A DNA stretch of 64,000 bases, from contig NZ_JAALCR010000001.1 of the NCBI RefSeq assembly GCF_011065895.1, positions 434,001 to 498,000 of the forward strand, in the 5' to 3' direction. Shown one piece after another: positions 413-54,242 of the stretch (its first letter is position 1; every line of letters begins with the position of its first letter). Source of the DNA: Paludisphaera rhizosphaerae. GTDB lineage: Bacteria; Planctomycetota; Planctomycetia; Isosphaerales; Isosphaeraceae. The notes under the pieces were generated by a model, which saw nothing but the letters and a program-made list of their open reading frames with translations, ran no database searches and was not told the DNA's origin. A program made the position numbers and the translations under genes.

Positions 413-1495
413 TCAATCCCGGCTGTTCTGGCGGTTGCGGAAGCGGGCGCTGACGCGGACAAGGAAGCGGTTCTCCTCTTCGGTCAGAGCGGCGCGGCCC
501 TCGCGGTAGAGCTTGTCGAGGATTTCATCCATTCGACGCTCCTCGGCGATCTCCTGCATGATTCGGCGCTGGCGACGCTGGTCCGACCGCCGCCGCCGCC
601 ACCGCTTCAGGGCGCTCTCGCGGTACGGGCGGACCTTGGCGGCGCTGCTCTCCAGGCTGGTGTAGCCTTCGGAGAAATCATAGCCGAAGACGCCGTCGTC
701 GAAGTACCCGCCGTCCTCCAGAACGCGCGACTCCGACCGCACCACCAGTTCGATCAGCACGGCCAGCAGGATGATCGTCAGGCCGTCGAGCCGCTGATAG
801 AGCAGCAGCCGGGCTGCACCAATCACGAACAGGACCGCCGCCGTGGAGCGGGCCGTCCAGGGCGCGACCATGCTGTCCCGCGAAACGCCGACGGAGGTGT
901 TGGCCAGGAACCAGCGGAAGAGCCGACCGGCGTCGAACGGAAGGGCGGGGAGCAGGTTCGCCAGGAAGATCAGGTAGTTGACGTAACCGAACCAGCCGAC
1001 CAGCCAGGGGGCGGTCATCGCCTCGGCCTTGGTCGTCCCGTTGATCCAGGGAGCGCCGATGTCGGCCTCGCGACTGAACGGATTCCAGGCGAACTGGGCG
1101 TCCCAGCCGAATCCCAGCACGGCGGCGGCGAAGAGGGCCGTGGTTCCGCTGGCGAACGGCCCAGCGAGGACCGCCAGCATGTAGTTCGTGCCCCTTGGCG
1201 GATTGGTCGGACCCGCAAGGCTCCCCAGGGGCCAAAGGTGGACCTCCTCCAGATCGACGTCGGTCAACCAGGCGGTCAGGAGGTGGGCGGCCTCATGAAT
1301 CGCCAGAGCCAGCAGGAAGAGGGCGATCCAGGCGAGGGCCTGGCCCATGCGGAAGCCGAACGACGTCGTCGAATGCTGGAACGCTGCCCCGAGGAGCAGG
1401 GAACCGATGAAGAGGATCAGTGTGATGTGGACCTTGATCGTGGTCCCAAACCACCGCCCTAGACGAATTGGCGACCATGTCAGCAGATCGCTCAT
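413..1495 (-). CDS. M50 (site-2 protease) family intramembrane metalloprotease
   Basis: A 360-residue multi-spanning membrane protein. Hydrophobic segments fill roughly residues 20-260. The zinc site is complete: HEAAH at residues 67-71 gives the two His ligands and the catalytic Glu68, and NLLPALPFDAG around 180-190 gives the third ligand Asp188. Family members cut substrate helices inside the membrane, often to release membrane-held transcription or sigma factors. The soluble C-terminal arm (about 290-360) is very basic and then ends in a short domain reading ILDKLYREGRAALTEEENRFL. That tail resembles one seen after planctomycete rhomboid and M50 proteases (DUF6576-like, from memory). There is no PDZ domain. 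The gene starts opposite aroB across a 298-base divergent gap. The substrate cannot be read from the sequence. Confidence 0.88.
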   Translation of the reverse strand: MSDLLTWSPIRLGRWFGTTIKVHITLILFIGSLLLGAAFQHSTTSFGFRMGQALAWIALFLLALAIHEAAHLLTAWLTDVDLEEVHLWPLGSLAGPTNPPRGTNYMLAVLAGPFASGTTALFAAAVLGFGWDAQFAWNPFSREADIGAPWINGTTKAEAMTAPWLVGWFGYVNYLIFLANLLPALPFDAGRLFRWFLANTSVGVSRDSMVAPWTARSTAAVLFVIGAARLLLYQRLDGLTIILLAVLIELVVRSESRVLEDGGYFDDGVFGYDFSEGYTSLESSAAKVRPYRESALKRWRRRRSDQRRQRRIMQEIAEERRMDEILDKLYREGRAALTEEENRFLVRVSARFRNRQNSRD

Positions 1496-24884: not shown

Positions 24885-25751
24885 CTACTCGGCTGCCGCG
24901 TGTCGTTCCGCGATGGCCAGTCGACCGCGATACGAGCGCGACGGCGGCGGCGGGGTTGCATGGGCCGTCTGGGCTCGCGGGCGGAGCGTCTCCTCCCGAG
25001 CCATCCGATCCACGGCGTCGATCAGATCGTCCATGGCGCAGGGGAGATCCAGGCAGGCGGAAGCCCCAGCCTCTCGGGCGTGCGTCACCGCCGTGCGATC
25101 GGCGAAGCCGAGCAGCGCCAGGACCGGCCCCTGTTTGCTGCGACGCTCCAGCCGTTCCTCCCAGCGAGGCTCCAGGACGGGGACGTCCCAGACGGTCAGC
25201 CGGCGGCCGTCAACAGGGTCGGCCAGGAGTTCGGCCGAGTCGGACGCCCGATAGCCCGCCCGCGTGCAGGCCTCGCAGAGCACCTGCCGAAGCTCATAGT
25301 CCGTGCTGACCACTTCCACGGGCGAGGCCTCTCGCGCCGTCCGGCTCGCGACGCCCGGTGTCTTCAGCATTCGCTCGATCTGCCGGGGAAGCGTCTCAGC
25401 GGCCGTGGCCTCCGGCGTCACGATTTCCACCAGCCCGGCGCAGCGCTCGATCTCCGCATACCGAACGTACGGGCTGACGCACAGGACGATCCGAGGCCAG
25501 TTCTCCACGCCGAGCCCGCGGCGAAGCTCTTCCAACTGGGAAACGTCGGCGGCGGACAATCGCGAGCGGTGGAGGATCAGGATCCCCCTCGACCCTCCCA
25601 CGGCCTGAAAGGCCCGACAAGGCAACTCCGCCCCATATTGCTCGCAGGGGACGACAGCGAGACCGGAAAGCGCCTGGGCGATCCCCTCGACCCAGGGGTC
25701 GGTCAGGTCGCCCGCGAAGCCGATCGCCGTCGGAGAGGTCGTGTCCATCAT
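24885..25751 (-). CDS. Pseudo-receiver-like regulatory protein
   Basis: A 288-residue soluble protein with two alternating alpha/beta halves. The second half (about 145-265) reads like a response-regulator receiver in which the catalytic residues have been lost. The strand carrying the phospho-Asp reads LTVWDVPVLEPRW, and the Lys-Pro switch is replaced by CLDLPCAMDDLID. The first half has a similar alpha/beta pattern (GILILHRSRLSAAD, IVLCVSPYVR). It therefore looks like a tandem degenerate receiver, probably acting by protein contact, not phosphorylation. A Pro-rich and basic tail follows. The ATG has GGGAGGGA upstream. It precedes mfd by 87 bases on the same strand; a functional link is only possible, not shown. 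Confidence 0.55.
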   Translation of the reverse strand: MMDTTSPTAIGFAGDLTDPWVEGIAQALSGLAVVPCEQYGAELPCRAFQAVGGSRGILILHRSRLSAADVSQLEELRRGLGVENWPRIVLCVSPYVRYAEIERCAGLVEIVTPEATAAETLPRQIERMLKTPGVASRTAREASPVEVVSTDYELRQVLCEACTRAGYRASDSAELLADPVDGRRLTVWDVPVLEPRWEERLERRSKQGPVLALLGFADRTAVTHAREAGASACLDLPCAMDDLIDAVDRMAREETLRPRAQTAHATPPPPSRSYRGRLAIAERHAAAE

Positions 25752-25914: not shown

Positions 25915-25984
25915 TTTTTTCGTATCCAGACTCTCCGGTCCCGGCATGATGAGCTTGGTGTTCGAGAGCATAGAGGAGTCGTCG

Positions 25985-27826
25985 ATGAGCACCCGCCGGG
26001 TCGCCTCGCAATTCCAGACGCTGTTCGATTCAGGGGTCCTGAGCGCGTTGCCGGACCCTCAGTTGCTCGACCGGTTCACGCGGCTCGGCGATCGCGAGGC
26101 CTTCGAAGCGCTCGTCGGTCGGCACGGTCCGATGGTCATGGGAATCTGCCGACGCGTGCTGGGGGACGCTTCCGACGCCGACGACGCCTTCCAGGCCACG
26201 TTCCTGGTCCTCATCCGACGCGCCCCGGCTCTCCGTTCGGACGTCGTTCTGGCGGCCTGGCTGCACGGGGTCGCCTCGAAGGTTGCCCGGCGGGCCCGAT
26301 CGGACCGGGCGCGGCGATCGGCTCGCGAGCGAACGGCCATGGACGTCGAACCAGCCGTCGAACAGACGACGGCCGATTTCGCGCTCAAGGCGGTCGTGGA
26401 CGAGGAGGTCGAAAGGCTGCCGTGGAAGTACCGCGTCCCGGTCGCCCTCTGTTACCTGGAAGGTTTGACCCACGAGGAGGCCGCCCGCCGGCTGGAATGG
26501 CCGATCGGTTCGGTCAAGGGACGCCTGGCGCGGGCGAAAACCCTGCTCGGATCACGCCTGGCCCGCCGTGGCGTAACCGCGGGCGTCGCCGCGGCAGCCG
26601 TTGACGGACTGACCGAGGCCGCCGTTTCCGAAGCCTCTCGCCGCGCCCTGGTCCGCGCCGCGGAGCGGATCGCCTGGGGCGGATCGTGGAAATCCGTCGT
26701 TTCCGATCGCGTCGTCCACCTGACCGGGGAGGTCCTTACTTCGATGCTACTAACCAAACTGAAAGCCGCCGCATTGCTCGTCGCCGCCATCGGCCTGACC
26801 GCGACGGGCGTGGGCTTCGCCGCTCGCGAAGGTGACGCGGGCCCCTCGGAAATTCCTCCCGCTTCCCTTCTTCCTCCGGGTGCGCAGGCAAGGAACGAGT
26901 CCGAGCAAAACGTAGACGCTCGTCAACCCAACAAACAGAAGAGAATCAACGCGCCCGCATCACCCGAAGATCGCTACGTTGATGCCGCCCGCCGAGCGTA
27001 CCTGACCGTGAGCGAGTGGCACCCGCAGACACTGGATCTGATCGATATCGTCTACCGCGCTTCGCGGCGACTTCTCGACGCCCAGACCACAGCGGCGAGA
27101 ACGCCGGAGGCTCGGAGAACAGCCCTGACGGCACACTTGGACCGTATGAGGACCTTGTCCCACAAAGCCAACGAGAAGGGCGGCGTCGAGGCGATGCCAA
27201 TCGCAGCCGAGGCACACGCGATGGTCGCCGAGGCTGAACTGTGGCTGGCCCGCGGCGGCGAAGCTCCCCGTGAAGTCGACCCGCCAATGCCAGGCTCCGG
27301 CGATACGGGCGCGAACGAGGGCGATCGAAATCCCCGGTCGAAGATGATGCTGAAGAAGCTCGAAGAGCCGATCGCGATGATCTTCCCGAACGAGACGCCT
27401 CTGGAGGACATTCTCAAGTACGTCAAGCAGGCCACCGACGCGCCCAACGACGATGGTCTTGAGCTCTATGTTGATCCCCAGGGACTCCAGGAGGCTGACA
27501 AGACTCTCACTTCCCCCGTCGCGCTTGAAGTCGAGGGCGTCCCCCTGCGACGAACGTTGCAACTGCTCCTGGATCAGCTCGGCCTGGTTTACTTCGTCGA
27601 GGACGGCATGGTCGTCATCACCGCCGCCGGAAGGAATTCCTACGGTCTGAAGCCAACCATGGCCAAAAGCACTCCGCTGGACGAGGAGGTTGGTCGGGCG
27701 AAGCGCGGGGAGTTGAGCACAGAGGAATTGAACGCCCTGATCGAGAAGATGAAGCTCATTCAGCAGGTGGCCGAACTCCACCATCCGACCGCCTCGCGAC
27801 CGACTGAAACGCCGAAATCCCCCTGA
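25985..27826 (+). CDS. ECF sigma factor fused to membrane anchor and STN/secretin-like domain
   Basis: A 613-residue protein. Residues ~30-105 are sigma region 2 (FEALVGRHGPMVMGICRRVL, DADDAFQATFLVL). Residues ~140-195 are region 4 (LPWKYRVPVALCYLEGLTH, GSVKGRLARAK). A hydrophobic segment (KLKAAALLVAAIGLTATG, ~262) probably spans the membrane. The distal part ends in a small domain (about 455-545) reading NETPLEDILKYVKQ, LYVDPQGLQ, PLRRTLQLLLDQLGL and GMVVIT, the pattern of STN/secretin N0 domains. That arrangement places the sensory domain outside and the sigma part inside. The ATG has AGAGGAG upstream. A second, similar gene follows after 151 bases. No separate anti-sigma factor is present. 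Confidence 0.85.
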   Translation: MSTRRVASQFQTLFDSGVLSALPDPQLLDRFTRLGDREAFEALVGRHGPMVMGICRRVLGDASDADDAFQATFLVLIRRAPALRSDVVLAAWLHGVASKVARRARSDRARRSARERTAMDVEPAVEQTTADFALKAVVDEEVERLPWKYRVPVALCYLEGLTHEEAARRLEWPIGSVKGRLARAKTLLGSRLARRGVTAGVAAAAVDGLTEAAVSEASRRALVRAAERIAWGGSWKSVVSDRVVHLTGEVLTSMLLTKLKAAALLVAAIGLTATGVGFAAREGDAGPSEIPPASLLPPGAQARNESEQNVDARQPNKQKRINAPASPEDRYVDAARRAYLTVSEWHPQTLDLIDIVYRASRRLLDAQTTAARTPEARRTALTAHLDRMRTLSHKANEKGGVEAMPIAAEAHAMVAEAELWLARGGEAPREVDPPMPGSGDTGANEGDRNPRSKMMLKKLEEPIAMIFPNETPLEDILKYVKQATDAPNDDGLELYVDPQGLQEADKTLTSPVALEVEGVPLRRTLQLLLDQLGLVYFVEDGMVVITAAGRNSYGLKPTMAKSTPLDEEVGRAKRGELSTEELNALIEKMKLIQQVAELHHPTASRPTETPKSP

Positions 27827-27977
27827 TGCGGCGTCGCCCGAATTCTTGATTGAGTTTCATCCTCTTCCCTGAATGCGATCTACGCTTCGAATGGAGCCCC
27901 GGGTGGATGGACTCGGGACGAACTCGATGAAGCGCCTTAGTCGACGGCGACGGGCGCGGATCGCGGGAGGTGGAAGA

Positions 27978-29246
27978 ATGGTCGATGCAAGCGATCGACG
28001 AAACCTGGAAGCCGCCTCGACCGGGGATCGAGAAGCCTGCGCGGCCCTGGTCACGCTCTATGGGCCGCTCGCCCTGGGCGTCTGTCGCCGAGTCCTCGGC
28101 GCTGGGGTCGACGCCGACTCGGTGTTTCAGACGGTCTTTCTGGACTTCCTGAAGCGTGGTCCTCGACTAAGTCGTCGCGTCGATCCAGCCCTCTGGCTGC
28201 ACCGTTCCGCCTGTCGAGCCGCCCGGCGGGCTCGGGGCGGGGCCAGCGCCGAAGCCACGGTCGATTCACGATCCCGGGGGAGACTGGACCTAAGGCGGAT
28301 GATCGACGACGACATCGACGACCTCTGGCGTGCGCGTGGCCCCGTGATCCTCTGCGCTCTGATGAACCTTTCGCCGGAGAAAGCCGCCGAGCGGTTGGGA
28401 TTGTCGATCGATCAGGTCGAGCGTCGGCTGGACCGAGGCTTCGGCGTGATCGACGCCCGTCTCCGCCGCCGGGTTGAACGTGCCGCGCCGGGGACGATCG
28501 CTCCGTTCCTCTCATGGCAGGACCTCGGCGACGTTCCGGTTCCATCATCGCTGTTCGAGGAGATCCTCCACGCTGCGGCGAAAGGCGTCCGAACCCGATG
28601 GTCGGCCGCTTTCGCTGCGGACTCGTCCGAAGAATTGAACCCGCCGAGAGTCGCCGTGACGGCTATCTCGCGACTTCGAAGCTTCACGACCTCGAGCATC
28701 CTGGTCGTCGGCATGGGAGCGGGGGCCAGCTACGCCGCGCTCATGGGGCCTGAGGCCCTGAAGGCCGGGGTCGCCGAGCGACAGGTCGAGGTCGCAACTC
28801 CGGCCCCCTCGGTTCAGACCTCAGGCGTCGCTGGGGCAAGGATCGCGATCATCGCCAGACTCAACGAACCGTTCTCCCTCAAGACCGCCGAGCCGATCCA
28901 GCTTGACGAATTCCTGGATCGAGTCCGCGAGGCGACTCAAACGCCTGAGGGCGTCCTCCTGATCCACGTCGACCTGGCGGGCCTAAAGCGAGTCGGGGCC
29001 TCGCTTTCCTCGCCCGTCGCGCTGGACACCAACGGTGCGACGCTCGGCGAGACCCTCCGGCGCACTCTGGCGCAGGCGGGCCTGGCCTATGAGGTCGACG
29101 GCGGACGACTCGTCGTCACCGCCGCCAAACCGGAGCCTGAGGAATTCTTGAAGGAACTCAGTGCCGCGGACGCACGAAAGCTTAAGGAGAAGCTGCGCCT
29201 CCTGGGTCACTTCGATCCGTCCATCGCCTTCAGCCGAGACCGTTGA
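27978..29246 (+). CDS. Divergent ECF-sigma-like protein with STN-like C-terminal domain
   Basis: A 422-residue relative of the preceding gene, shorter and more diverged. The region-2-like segment (LVTLYGPLALGVCRRVLGAG, then DADSVFQTVFLDF) has lost the usual acidic DDAFQ pattern. Region 4 (LSPEKAAERLGLSIDQVERRL) is recognisable. A hydrophobic stretch (SILVVGMGAGASYAALMG, ~237) could be an anchor. The C-terminal STN-like domain (about 290-385) has EPIQLDEFLDRVREAT, LIHVDLAGLK, GATLGETLRRTL and GGRLVVT. The ATG at 27978 follows GGGAGGTGGAAG; the frame's earlier starts have no ribosome site. Whether it still binds promoters or RNA polymerase is uncertain. Confidence 0.75.
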   Translation: MVDASDRRNLEAASTGDREACAALVTLYGPLALGVCRRVLGAGVDADSVFQTVFLDFLKRGPRLSRRVDPALWLHRSACRAARRARGGASAEATVDSRSRGRLDLRRMIDDDIDDLWRARGPVILCALMNLSPEKAAERLGLSIDQVERRLDRGFGVIDARLRRRVERAAPGTIAPFLSWQDLGDVPVPSSLFEEILHAAAKGVRTRWSAAFAADSSEELNPPRVAVTAISRLRSFTTSSILVVGMGAGASYAALMGPEALKAGVAERQVEVATPAPSVQTSGVAGARIAIIARLNEPFSLKTAEPIQLDEFLDRVREATQTPEGVLLIHVDLAGLKRVGASLSSPVALDTNGATLGETLRRTLAQAGLAYEVDGGRLVVTAAKPEPEEFLKELSAADARKLKEKLRLLGHFDPSIAFSRDR

Positions 29247-51383: not shown

Positions 51384-52916
51384 TCAGGGTCGTCTGAGGT
51401 ATGTGCGATCCTCCGGAACGAAGAGGCGTCCATCCGGCGACTCTTGGAGCGAGGTAATCATGTCGGACCGGGTACTTCCTTTGGACGTGGAATGGTTCAA
51501 GGAACGATTCGGCGTTGAATCGCTTGCTTTTGCCGGCCCTCTTCGTGCTCCTGGAGGGGCGGGAGCTGGAGACGCGGTCGATGCTGGAACTTCCAGTTTC
51601 TTGATCAGGGCGTCCAACTTCTCTTCAAGGCGGTCCAGTCGTTGTTCAACGGCCCCGGTGTGGGAATCGATCATGAGGAAACCGTCTCTCACGCAATAGC
51701 CGAGCTTCGCAATCGCCAGGCTCTCGCGCAGCGATGCAGACAGCGGCTGATTCTTGCCGTGGAAGGAGACGCGCGAGGTCATCGTGAGGTCGGCAATGAA
51801 CAGCCCCAGCGGATTGACGTAGATCGGGATGCCGGGGGCGTCCTCGATGCTGGAGACCTCCTTGATCCTCTTGAGGAGCGTTTCGAGTTCGATGCCGTCG
51901 GTATCCAGATCGAACGGCCTGGCCAGGAAGGCGCGAATTCGCTCATCTCTCGTTTCGGGCCCTTCCTTCGTCGGCATCTTCGGTTGCGGTGGAGCGTCGA
52001 CCGAGACCATCGGTTTGGCCTCCGAGGGAGTAGGCTTCGGCGCGGCTTCTTGAGCAGGCTCCTGGTACGTCTCCGCCTGTCGGGCGAGCACGGCGGCCGA
52101 GCCGATGACGCCGAGCGTCGCCAGCGACGAGAAAACCACGGGCTTCAAAGAAGACAGGGTCATGGCGAATATCGCTCCTTTCGCGAGGTGTGAGGCGGAG
52201 ATCGTGGACGTCGCTCCGGCGGCCAGCGACTGGGCGGCGTTCAGCAGGGCGAGGGGCAGCGGGACCGGGGTGAGGGAGTCGGGCGAGTCGATGACCCCCT
52301 GAGCCTTCAATCGCTCCTCGAGTCGCTTGCGCGCCCGATGCAGCCGGCCGCGGAGTGTCGGCTCCGGAACACCCAGCGCCCGGGCGGCCCGCTCATAGGT
52401 CAGGCCCTCCAGTCGGCAGAGAACAAGCGGCGCACGCTCGCGTTCGGGGAGTCGATCGATCTCGGCGTGGATCAGGGCGGAAGCGTCGGGCGTCGACCGA
52501 CTGCCACGGACTGCGTCTTCGAGAGTGGTTGGATCGACGAGCCTCAGCCGGCCGGCTCGCGAACGAGAGCGACGTCGCGCCGCCTTCGCCACCCGGAGGG
52601 CGACGCCGTACAGCCAGGGGCCGAGCGAATCCCCCTTGCGGATTGAGCTCGCCCGCTGGATCAGCACGAGAAAGACCGCCTGAAAGGCGTCGTCCGCCTC
52701 GGCCGGATCGGCGACGAGGCTCCGGCAGACCGAGAGCACCATCGGCCCGTGACGTTCGACGAGGAGTCGGAAAGCCTCCTCGGCGCCGGTTCGCCTGCCC
52801 CGGTAGACGTCCAGCAGCCGGGCGTCCGTTTCCTCGCCGACCACGCCCAGCGTGAGCAAGGTTTGCAATGGGCCTGCGGGAGAACGTCGGGCGGGCTTTT
52901 GCATGATGTGTTTCAT
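51384..52916 (-). CDS. ECF sigma factor with membrane anchor, STN-like domain and coiled coil
   Basis: A 510-residue protein of the same design as the two genes at 25985 and 27978. Region 2 reads FRLLVERHGPMVLSVCRSLV then EADDAFQAVFLVLIQ; region 4 reads LPERERAPLVLCRLEGLTY and ERAARALGVPEPTLRGRLHRA. An anchor follows (VVFSSLATLGVIGSAAVLA, ~262), then a Pro-rich linker and an STN-like domain (about 340-420: IELETLLKRIKEVS, IYVNPLGL, ASLRESLAIAKLGY, DGFLMIDS). The last ~90 residues start as a coiled coil (QRLDRLEEKLDALIKKLE) and end Ser/Pro-rich. There is no anti-sigma gene beside it. Its ATG stands divergent from the thioredoxin gene across 372 bases. Confidence 0.85.
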   Translation of the reverse strand: MKHIMQKPARRSPAGPLQTLLTLGVVGEETDARLLDVYRGRRTGAEEAFRLLVERHGPMVLSVCRSLVADPAEADDAFQAVFLVLIQRASSIRKGDSLGPWLYGVALRVAKAARRRSRSRAGRLRLVDPTTLEDAVRGSRSTPDASALIHAEIDRLPERERAPLVLCRLEGLTYERAARALGVPEPTLRGRLHRARKRLEERLKAQGVIDSPDSLTPVPLPLALLNAAQSLAAGATSTISASHLAKGAIFAMTLSSLKPVVFSSLATLGVIGSAAVLARQAETYQEPAQEAAPKPTPSEAKPMVSVDAPPQPKMPTKEGPETRDERIRAFLARPFDLDTDGIELETLLKRIKEVSSIEDAPGIPIYVNPLGLFIADLTMTSRVSFHGKNQPLSASLRESLAIAKLGYCVRDGFLMIDSHTGAVEQRLDRLEEKLDALIKKLEVPASTASPAPAPPGARRGPAKASDSTPNRSLNHSTSKGSTRSDMITSLQESPDGRLFVPEDRTYLRRP

Positions 52917-53288
52917 CCTGTCGAAACGACGACGACCCTCTCGTCTCTCACGGACGACCAGACACCTATTCGGCGGCGACGATCAAGACGTCTTCCCCCC
53001 TGGAGGGGGAAGGCTGTTATGGTCGCTGCTCCTGAAAAAGCGTCGGTTCGTCAGCGTCTCCAAGGAGGGGAGAGCAGTCGACGTCAGCGGCTTCGATCGA
53101 GAGAAAGCTTCACACTCTCGTTCACCTTCATAGTGCCCGTGAAGCCGGGATCCTCACACGGTTCGCCGCTGAACCTGAGGAATTCGTTTCGGCCGCCGCT
53201 CCAGGGCCGTTACAGTCGTACGAGAGGAGGGATGGCCCGCGTCGGCGTCCGGCGCAGCGTCCAACAAGCCTCAACAAGGGAGTCGGCC
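52917..53288. other. Divergent region between ECF and double-thioredoxin genes
   Basis: 372 bases with no gene. A small hairpin (CTTCCCCC...GGGGGAAG) is near 52993-53012. AT content rises slightly near 53100-53150. No promoter pair was convincing. Confidence 0.35.
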
Positions 53289-54242
53289 ATGCGATCGGTG
53301 ACGATGTTCGCGGCGCTTTGCGGGGGGCTGGTGCTGGTCGGGGCGGCCCGGGGCGAGGAAGCGAAGCCGGCGAAGAAGTCGATCTACGACGCGACGGCCG
53401 ACGCTCGCGCGCAGGTCGAAAAGGCCGCGGCGCAGGCGAAGAAGGACGGCACGCGGGTCCTCCTGATGTTCGGCGGCGACTGGTGCGGCTGGTGCCATAA
53501 GCTCCACACCCTCTTCCGCGAGGACAAGGAGATCGCGACTATCCTCTCCAACGAATATGAGCTGGTGATGATCGACACGAAGGCGCCCAACGCGGAGACC
53601 TACCTGTCGGAGGCCTCCAAGGGCCTCGATGGCGTCGGCTATCCGTTCCTCGCCGTCTACGACGCCGACGGCAAACTCTTGAAGGGCCAGAAGACCGATC
53701 CCCTGGAAGAAGGCGACCACCACGACCCAGCCAAGGTCAAGGCGTTCCTCGAAGAGTGGAAGGTCGCCGCCAAGGACGCCGACGCAGTCGTGAGCGAGGC
53801 CCTCGCGAAGGCCTCGTCGGAGGGCAAACGCGTCTTCCTCCGCTTCGGCGCGCCGTGGTGCGGCTGGTGCCACAAGCTGGACGACTACCTTGCGCGGCCG
53901 GAAGTCGCCAAGGCCTTCGCCGACGATTTCGTGCTCGTCAAGGTCGACGTCGACCGCATGACCCGCGGCCAGGACGTGATGAAGAAGTATCGCCCCGAGG
54001 CGACCAGCGGCATCCCCTGGTTCGTCGTGCTCGACGGTCAGGGCAAGGCCCACGGCACGGCCGACGCCTCGTTCGGCAACATCGGCTATCCCTTCGAGCC
54101 CAAGGAGATCGACGCCTTCGTCAAGCTGATGGAATCACAGGGGACGCTTGACCGAGGCCAACTCGAAACGCTCCGCAAGAACCTGGAATCAGCCGCCGAC
54201 GAGATCCGGTCCCAACAGGCGAAACGGAAGGCAGCGGGCTGA
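53289..54242 (+). CDS. Exported tandem thioredoxin-domain protein
   Basis: A 317-residue secreted protein with a signal peptide (cleavage after GAARGEE, ~23). Two thioredoxin-like domains follow, each with an identical WCGWCHKL active site: FGGDWCGWCHKL near residue 64 and FGAPWCGWCHKL near 192. They share the same flanks (RVLLMFGG/RVFLRFGA) and a cis-Pro loop (GYPFLAVYD, SGIPWFVVLD). This suggests an internal duplication. The CGWC pattern occurs in DsbD-gamma-like and thioredoxin_7 domains. It could reduce disulfides of exported proteins. AAGGGAG lies upstream of the ATG. A helical, Lys/Gln-rich tail closes the protein. Confidence 0.87.
   Translation: MRSVTMFAALCGGLVLVGAARGEEAKPAKKSIYDATADARAQVEKAAAQAKKDGTRVLLMFGGDWCGWCHKLHTLFREDKEIATILSNEYELVMIDTKAPNAETYLSEASKGLDGVGYPFLAVYDADGKLLKGQKTDPLEEGDHHDPAKVKAFLEEWKVAAKDADAVVSEALAKASSEGKRVFLRFGAPWCGWCHKLDDYLARPEVAKAFADDFVLVKVDVDRMTRGQDVMKKYRPEATSGIPWFVVLDGQGKAHGTADASFGNIGYPFEPKEIDAFVKLMESQGTLDRGQLETLRKNLESAADEIRSQQAKRKAAG

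Follow-up and report, generated by a model that had tools for sequence, protein, structure and literature searches.

Extracytoplasmic function (ECF) sigma factors with regulatory extensions, including those activated by proteolysis, form a recognized class (PMC8999054, PMC8103513). For example, IutY of Pseudomonas putida (ECF243) carries a cytoplasmic ECF sigma domain, a single transmembrane (TM) segment and an extracytoplasmic regulatory domain in one polypeptide (PMC5411451, PMC8999054); this single-pass sigma/anti-sigma protein works with the outer-membrane receptor IutA, and its sigma domain is cut free by Prc and RseP (PMC5411451). PupR, of the FecR/PupR type, regulates an ECF sigma factor, crosses the membrane once and has an STN subdomain at its extreme C terminus, and its periplasmic region, which ends in this subdomain, binds the like-folded signalling domain of PupB (PMC7186176). 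RsiV of Bacillus subtilis, a single-pass ECF sigma regulator whose TM segment is directly followed by an AxA motif, is a precedent for site-1 cutting by signal peptidase (PMC4183432). Planctomycete ECF sigma factors include expanded paralogues with added C-terminal domains such as WD40 (PMC8567305), and proteolytic activation is expected of ECF sigma factors with C-terminal TM extensions (PMC8999054). Here we analyzed a stretch of 64,000 nucleotides from Paludisphaera rhizosphaerae (assembly GCF_011065895.1, contig NZ_JAALCR010000001.1, positions 434,001 to 498,000; hereafter the window, numbered from its first letter), in which one protein, P0001, joins an ECF sigma factor to a TM segment, a helical bundle and an STN-type domain, and is followed by a diverged tandem duplicate, P0002.

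We consider the chances roughly even that P0001 is a one-component, membrane-tethered and self-inhibited ECF sigma factor that is freed by proteolysis after an extracytoplasmic signal received through the STN-type domain. This reading is supported by the sigma domain matches, the single TM segment preceded by KLK, the STN-type fold, the compact sigma model, the proteases of the genome, the synteny and the precedent of IutY. Membrane-spanning ECF extensions are already known, and the ECF-TM-STN arrangement is a variant on them; the literature searched, whose coverage was partial, yielded no description of a planctomycete ECF-TM-STN protein, which is a weak negative.

Architecture and topology of P0001

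The features of P0001 are as follows.
25985..27826 (+), P0001, a 613-aa protein with an ECF sigma factor, TM segment, helical bundle and STN-type domain
26111..26317 (+), sigma-70 region 2 (Pfam PF04542, 45.5 bits, above cut-off)
26396..26545 (+), sigma-70 region 4 (Pfam PF08281, Sigma70_r4_2, 47.3 bits, above cut-off)
26579..26674 (+), pair of additional helices after region 4 and before the TM helix (AlphaFold2 N-terminal model)
26768..26824 (+), TM segment with a GFAA small-residue stretch at its end (Kyte-Doolittle 1.95)
26963..27253 (+), four-helix bundle, absent from P0002 (AlphaFold2, predicted local distance difference test (pLDDT) 79-96 per ten-residue block)
27317..27637 (+), STN-type domain (PF07660 below cut-off; superposes on 4m0h_A)

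With both sigma regions over the Pfam cut-off, P0001 belongs to the ECF sigma-70 factors, and known ECF sigma structures match its model over residues ~20-199. Residues 2-297 were modelled by AlphaFold2 from an alignment of 59 sequences with a pLDDT of 91.6 and a predicted template modelling score (pTM) of 0.84; in this model, region 4 is followed by two helices and then by one long helix that contains the TM segment. The two helices are a candidate built-in anti-sigma element. No anti-sigma family occurred among the Pfam matches of P0001 and P0002, nor among the matches listed (25 of 37 families) for their relatives. The modelled sigma2/sigma4 pair is compact, lying 7.7 Å from SigW-RsiW over 156 residues and 6.5 Å from CnrH-CnrY over 153, compared with 26.5 Å over 152 residues for SigL and 28.3 Å over 126 for SigH, both bound to RNA polymerase. 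This predicted placing, nearer to some anti-sigma-bound ECF sigma factors than to polymerase-bound ones, is suggestive only.

P0001 has a single clear hydrophobic segment (residues 262-280), directly preceded by KLK, a pattern common among its relatives. Its score of 1.95 can be set beside the median best segment score of 1.91 over 78 sigma-bearing frames. The 15 residues before the segment hold two K/R and one D/E, and the 15 after it one K/R and three D/E. On the basis of homology and this slight charge bias, and not of a topology program, we infer that the STN-type domain lies outside the cytoplasmic membrane. Three STN proteins without a sigma domain in the same genome (L054, L056 and L061), one of them a secretin, have a signal-peptide-like start as judged by eye. 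The first-pass annotation had proposed an ECF sigma factor, a membrane anchor and an STN-like C-terminal domain in one chain, and had pointed to the lack of a predicted TM segment, or to a C-terminal domain from a cytoplasmic family, as what would speak against it. For P0001 the proposal was borne out, since the TM segment is clear and the C-terminal domain had no significant match of that kind.

The probable extracytoplasmic part

The C-terminal AlphaFold2 model (residues 286-613, 40 sequences; pLDDT 82.5, pTM 0.47) contains the bundle at ~327-423 and an alpha/beta domain at ~445-547, whose ten-residue blocks mostly reach 94-97. Structural matches of the bundle were 14-3-3, designed and other helical chains, all with Z < 10, and do not assign it to a particular fold. 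The bundle is absent in P0002, yet present in the P0002 ortholog of the same-genus relative G001.

Membership of the alpha/beta domain in the Pfam family STN was not reached by either whole protein (P0001 16.9 bits, P0002 15.1 bits, cut-off 28.4); the isolated P0001 domain matched PF07660 at E 2e-4 with 21.5 bits, below the cut-off, and 22 of 28 STN domains matched this family at E up to 1 (best 1.3e-8). Because the Pfam scores stay below threshold, we use the label STN-type rather than STN. By its predicted fold, the domain belongs with STN and secretin N0 domains: it superposes on BDI_1681 (4m0h_A; Z 9.1, 1.6 Å, 73 residues), a putative anti-sigma factor that we take to be FecR-type, and on the N0 domains of the secretins EscC (3gr5, Z 8.7) and PilQ (4av2, Z 8.2). 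However, this superposition is not exclusive, because unrelated phage/PVC baseplate or spike chains (9qgm, 6j0m, 9vzk and 1wru; Z 8.0-8.4) score nearly equally over the same range, so that the structural ranking alone does not choose the family. A Foldseek search with the C-terminal model gave nothing under E 0.001; its best rows (E 0.097-0.27) were LspD, PupA, a designed protein, EscC, PilQ, BDI_1681 and a second designed chain, with LspD, PupA, EscC and PilQ within the first six rows at probabilities of 0.96-1.00 (PupA signalling domain: E 0.11, probability 0.99). Searching PDB sequences with the STN profile returned a PilQ secretin as the best match, with a non-significant E of 0.021 and no stretch passing alone. 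Elsewhere in the genome, the domain is also part of a TPR protein that starts with a signal-peptide-like stretch and of a 1460-aa secretin. STN-type is the label best supported by sequence, fold and this occurrence in a secretin taken together, and the model and structural alignments are consistent with the STN-like domain of the initial annotation.

A third protein of this type lies in the window.
51384..52916 (-), third ECF-TM-STN protein of the window (iterated STN profile)

A single iterated profile detects the C-terminal domain in P0001, in P0002 and, at 51387-52982 (-), in this third ECF sigma factor, so the domain that had been described as shared by the two copies is real. The motifs quoted for it fared less well. 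VDPxGL and GxVVT are looser than claimed, as P0002 has VDLAGL, and the second motif reads GMVVIT in P0001 and GRLVVT in P0002. LRRTL is present in both proteins but out of register, the P0001 copy aligning with LGETL of P0002, and we rejected it as a common motif.

P0001 thus resembles several described systems and differs from each. Like IutY, it combines the sigma domain, the single TM segment and the regulatory domain in one chain, a likeness in domain arrangement; unlike IutY, its sigma domain comes from an expanded planctomycete ECF family, a bundle precedes the STN-type domain, and its genome has no detected TonB plug, whereas IutY works with IutA. The superposition on BDI_1681 is its likeness to FecR/PupR-type proteins. 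In contrast to PupR, the sigma factor of P0001 is in the same chain and a helical bundle, not an all-beta juxtamembrane subdomain, stands before the STN-type domain (PMC7186176); in contrast to the FecR type, only 2 of the 28 STN domains matched FecR_C at E up to 1. P0001 shares paralogue expansion and an added C-terminal part with the WD40-type planctomycete ECF sigma factors, although its extension is a helical bundle with an STN-type domain. RsiV, unlike P0001, is an anti-sigma factor on a chain of its own and binds lysozyme (PMC4183432).

Distribution in the genome and in relatives

The genome of the window (G000; 8.05 Mb in 110 contigs) contains 47 matches to P0001. In a census of 28 stretches, which cover part of these matches, and of the window, the sigma profile was found in 34 open frames, 25 of which have a hydrophobic segment scoring at least 1.6; this is an upper figure, because the segment of L057 overlaps region 4 and L059 is multi-TM. 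An STN domain was present in 4 of the 34 (P0001, P0002, the 51387 protein and L039). Given the number of frames with a comparable segment, tethering is common in the ECF family of P0001, whose extensions are of several kinds, STN among them.

Related genomes also encode sigma-TM-STN proteins, so the architecture is not confined to P0001 and P0002. A pattern scan with P0001-type STN stretches, covering 84,980 species, each represented by a single genome, and reaching close relatives only, gave 53 loci titled Isosphaeraceae, its genera or planctomycete metagenome-assembled genomes, with one titled just 'bacterium'. These held 63 STN-bearing frames: 15 sigma-TM-STN frames (two with two STN domains) and 48 without a visible sigma domain, several of which end at the locus edge. 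The STN domain was detected in all 45 genomes searched of the family of the window, its own included, and 17 of 44 STN frames in 40 chosen stretches from them were sigma-TM-STN (some of these loci repeat earlier sets); Singulisphaera acidiphila has one such protein (L105). In a second family of the class, 56 of 61 genomes carry the STN domain, and no sigma domain was seen in 30 STN frames from the 30 best-scoring loci, which are mostly secretin-sized, so that rarer fusions could be missed. ECF-TM proteins with two or three tandem STN domains also occur in related genomes (L007 946-3789, L012 108-2492 and L005 1084-2790).

Conservation and the upstream element

In each of the five same-genus relatives examined (L031-L034, L036), P0001 has the 24885 gene and mfd as its neighbours, with identities of 86-91% for mfd and 48-65% for pieces of P0001. 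Compared with G001, identity is 86% in sigma4, 68% in sigma2, 69% in the STN-type domain and 49-52% in the juxtamembrane part and bundle; nonsynonymous substitutions per site (dN) are 0.09 in sigma4, 0.25 in the STN-type domain and 0.35-0.45 in the juxtamembrane part, bundle and TM segment (bundle 0.41). The GC content at third codon positions is 0.76 in P0001 and 0.75 in P0002, against 0.90 in mfd; the G001 orthologs of the two have 0.92 and 0.95.

A conserved element precedes P0001.
25921..25951 (+), promoter-like element CGTATCC-N16-GCATGATG upstream of P0001 (aligned genomes)

Its 16-base spacing is identical in six of six aligned genomes, and the exact core GTATCC-N16-GCATGAT is found in five, with one mismatch in G004; the full element has single-base variants in G003 and G004. 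The full pattern has one perfect match in the genome of the window, where sites with up to three mismatches number 222, that of P0001 included, against 61 for a reversed control. It is possible that the element is an autoregulatory promoter of P0001. A one-mismatch site (L189) showed no clear link when read, no copy was seen upstream of the third ECF gene in four aligned sequences (L032 and L035 left out), and the core occurs once in L017 of another genome, ~870 bases upstream of the frame there.

The divergent neighbour at 24885-25751 (-) encodes 288 aa with a weak receiver-domain match only (14.9 bits), and is a possible functional partner of P0001. The counterpart of the third ECF gene lies on the opposite side of mfd from P0001 in G001-G004, with the 52749 gene between, and in G005 on a contig other than that of mfd. 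The third ECF-STN gene adjoins a thioredoxin-like protein gene (52749-54242, +) in the window and in each of the five relatives in which the former was seen (L031-L035).

Proposed release of the sigma domain and alternative explanations

In the reading that we favour, the sigma domain of P0001 would be cytoplasmic and kept inactive by the tether, probably also by the two helices before the TM segment, while the bundle and STN-type domain would be extracytoplasmic. The STN part would become differently exposed through a protein partner, most likely an STN-bearing secreted protein or secretin. Cleavage of the outer region by a site-1 protease would follow, after which a site-2 (M50) protease would set the sigma domain free to engage RNA polymerase, the kind of release shown experimentally for IutY. 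The protease families M50, S41 and S26 are present in the genome, which is permissive only for such a two-step release. One M50 (site-2 type) protease gene lies within the window, at 413-1495 (-).

Several points weigh against release by proteolysis from a self-inhibited state. The highest Z score for the sigma model belongs to polymerase-bound SigL (11.7, tied with the following rows), anti-sigma-bound BldN (with RsbN) is 13.3 Å away over 130 residues, and AlphaFold2 may close sigma domains by habit. No Pfam match (E up to 1) to the FecR-type anti-sigma N domain was seen in P0001 and P0002, nor among the matches listed (25 of 37 families) for 59 relatives. The charge bias at the TM segment is slight, the pTM of 0.47 does not fix the mutual placing of the bundle and STN-type domain, and a receptor of the IutY type is missing from the genome. 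In addition, the linker after the TM segment was modelled with low confidence and is likely to be exposed, leaving the restraint of cleavage unexplained, and both cleavage and inactivity while tethered are steps that we infer by analogy.

These points leave room for other explanations. It is rather unlikely, in our view, that the tethered sigma factor works without proteolysis, the STN signal changing its shape or oligomeric state through the membrane and transcription taking place there. The superposition on ring-forming N0 domains (EscC 3gr5, PilQ 4av2) speaks for this, and the two or three STN domains of some relatives would suit assembly; however, no tethered ECF sigma factor acting from the membrane is described in the literature consulted, as far as its available parts go, and IutY needs release. 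We give still less credence to an extension that serves as a structural anchor without sensing, with regulation at the level of transcription: the promoter-like element conserved in six of six genomes fits it, although the STN-type domain, with 69% identity to G001 and a dN of 0.25 (versus 0.41 for the bundle), is one of the more strongly conserved regions of P0001, which speaks against it.

It is similarly improbable that signal peptidase makes the first cut, with the TM segment as an internal signal peptide ending in AxA, as in RsiV, and with the extracytoplasmic part gating the site. Besides the RsiV precedent (PMC4183432) and the S26 signal peptidase family in the genome, this explanation draws on the frequency of [AV]xA exactly at the TM end, found in 15 of 31 STN-bearing ECF sigma factors (often followed by Q or R) versus 3 of 39 without STN, where sigma frames with a TM score below 1.35 and repeated 28-residue stretches were omitted. 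Shuffling gave means of 3.7 and 3.9 for the two groups, and none of 5000 shuffles reached 15. However, the AxA rows are related, and in a tree-aware sign test p was 1, with at most four independent pairs, one of them on well-supported branches, so convergent selection is not supported as the cause of the enrichment. The tree comprised 67 related rows under a slightly laxer AxA rule and omitted the long branches L059 and L056 2562-3845, duplicates, TM scores below 1.35 and rows shorter than 150 residues. Moreover, P0001, with its GFAA end, and P0002 both fail the [AV]xA rule, and the open-looking linker after the TM segment predicts constant cutting.

Candidate partners

The TonB plug domain had no match in the genome of the window, in a search whose control was positive in 3 of 14 genomes. 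A TonB-receptor partner was therefore rejected for this genome, and the partner should be other than a receptor of the IutY type. The genome contains one FecR-domain frame and two secretins. Candidate partners of P0001 are secretins and secreted TPR-STN proteins that share its STN domain. Among those compared, the STN domain of this genome nearest to that of P0001 (61-63% identity) belongs to the following protein.
2506-4206 of L054, TPR-STN protein (G000 contig C1, ~38 kb downstream, beyond the end of the window)

By analogy with the pairing of like-folded domains in PupR and PupB, we hypothesize an STN-STN pairing between P0001 and its partner. A broader scheme, to which we assign only a small chance, is that Isosphaeraceae have a TonB-free form of cell-surface signalling, in which the STN receptor carried by the sigma factor itself would pair, through STN-STN contact, with secreted TPR-STN proteins or secretins, the TM segment would also act as an internal signal peptide at which a cut by signal peptidase begins the release, and P0002 would be a decoy competing for the STN partner.

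The tandem copy P0002

The features of P0002 are as follows.
27978..29246 (+), P0002, tandem duplicate that has diverged, 422 aa counted from the probable start
28047..28232 (+), sigma region 2, partly degraded (PF04542, 29.0 bits, cut-off 24)
28341..28439 (+), sigma region 4, degraded (PF08281, 15.2 bits, cut-off 25.7)
28692..28748 (+), weak hydrophobic segment (Kyte-Doolittle 1.38)
28845..29120 (+), STN-type domain (91.8 bits to the STN profile built in this analysis)

The longest frame spans 27873-29246; translation probably starts at the ATG at 27978, because the ribosome-binding-like GGGAGGTGG precedes it and the start of the G001 ortholog aligns there. P0002 is only partly recognizable as an ECF sigma factor, region 2 passing the Pfam cut-off and region 4 falling below it. 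At 1.38, its hydrophobic segment is about level with the highest-scoring stretch within the sigma domain of the same protein (1.37), compared with a segment score of 1.93 in the G001 ortholog; 2 of the 78 sigma domains mentioned above themselves reach 1.38. The view that both proteins carry sigma regions 2 and 4, a hydrophobic segment and the C-terminal domain is accordingly right for P0001, while P0002 has a sub-threshold region 4 and a weak segment. In the sigma-to-TM alignment, P0002 retains 26 of 41 near-invariant positions (15 lost), and among the 59 rows only the distant L059 keeps fewer. The G001 ortholog of P0002 retains 33 of 40, and the median over the rows is 97.5%. Region 2 is damaged and not erased, because the Q, W and A that are invariant in all 59 rows are retained. 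The degraded region 2 reported at first was thus confirmed, although region 4, the TM segment and the STN-type domain are degraded as well, region 4 more so by Pfam score.

An ortholog of P0002 at the same place was found in one of five same-genus relatives, G001. The terminal branch is 1.51 for P0002 versus 0.35 for P0001, with a warning from the program that long branches are placed unsurely, and dN in region 4 relative to G001 is 0.34 versus 0.09. We take P0002 to be a fast-evolving, relaxed tandem duplicate that probably no longer works as a normal sigma factor. A plain pseudogene is not favoured, given the open frame and a proportion of nonsynonymous differences from the G001 ortholog (pN 0.37) that is lower than that of synonymous ones (pS 0.54); these proportions are simple counts with dS near 1.

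Implications

The genome of P. rhizosphaerae and those of its relatives contain dozens of ECF sigma factors of the P0001 family, and to our knowledge few planctomycete ECF sigma factors have a known input. The STN domain is mostly familiar as a part of TonB receptors, secretins and FecR-type proteins. A tethered sigma factor with a recognizable extracytoplasmic docking domain offers a concrete and testable wiring hypothesis, and, if it is true, the STN domain can serve sigma factor control where no TonB receptor is detected.

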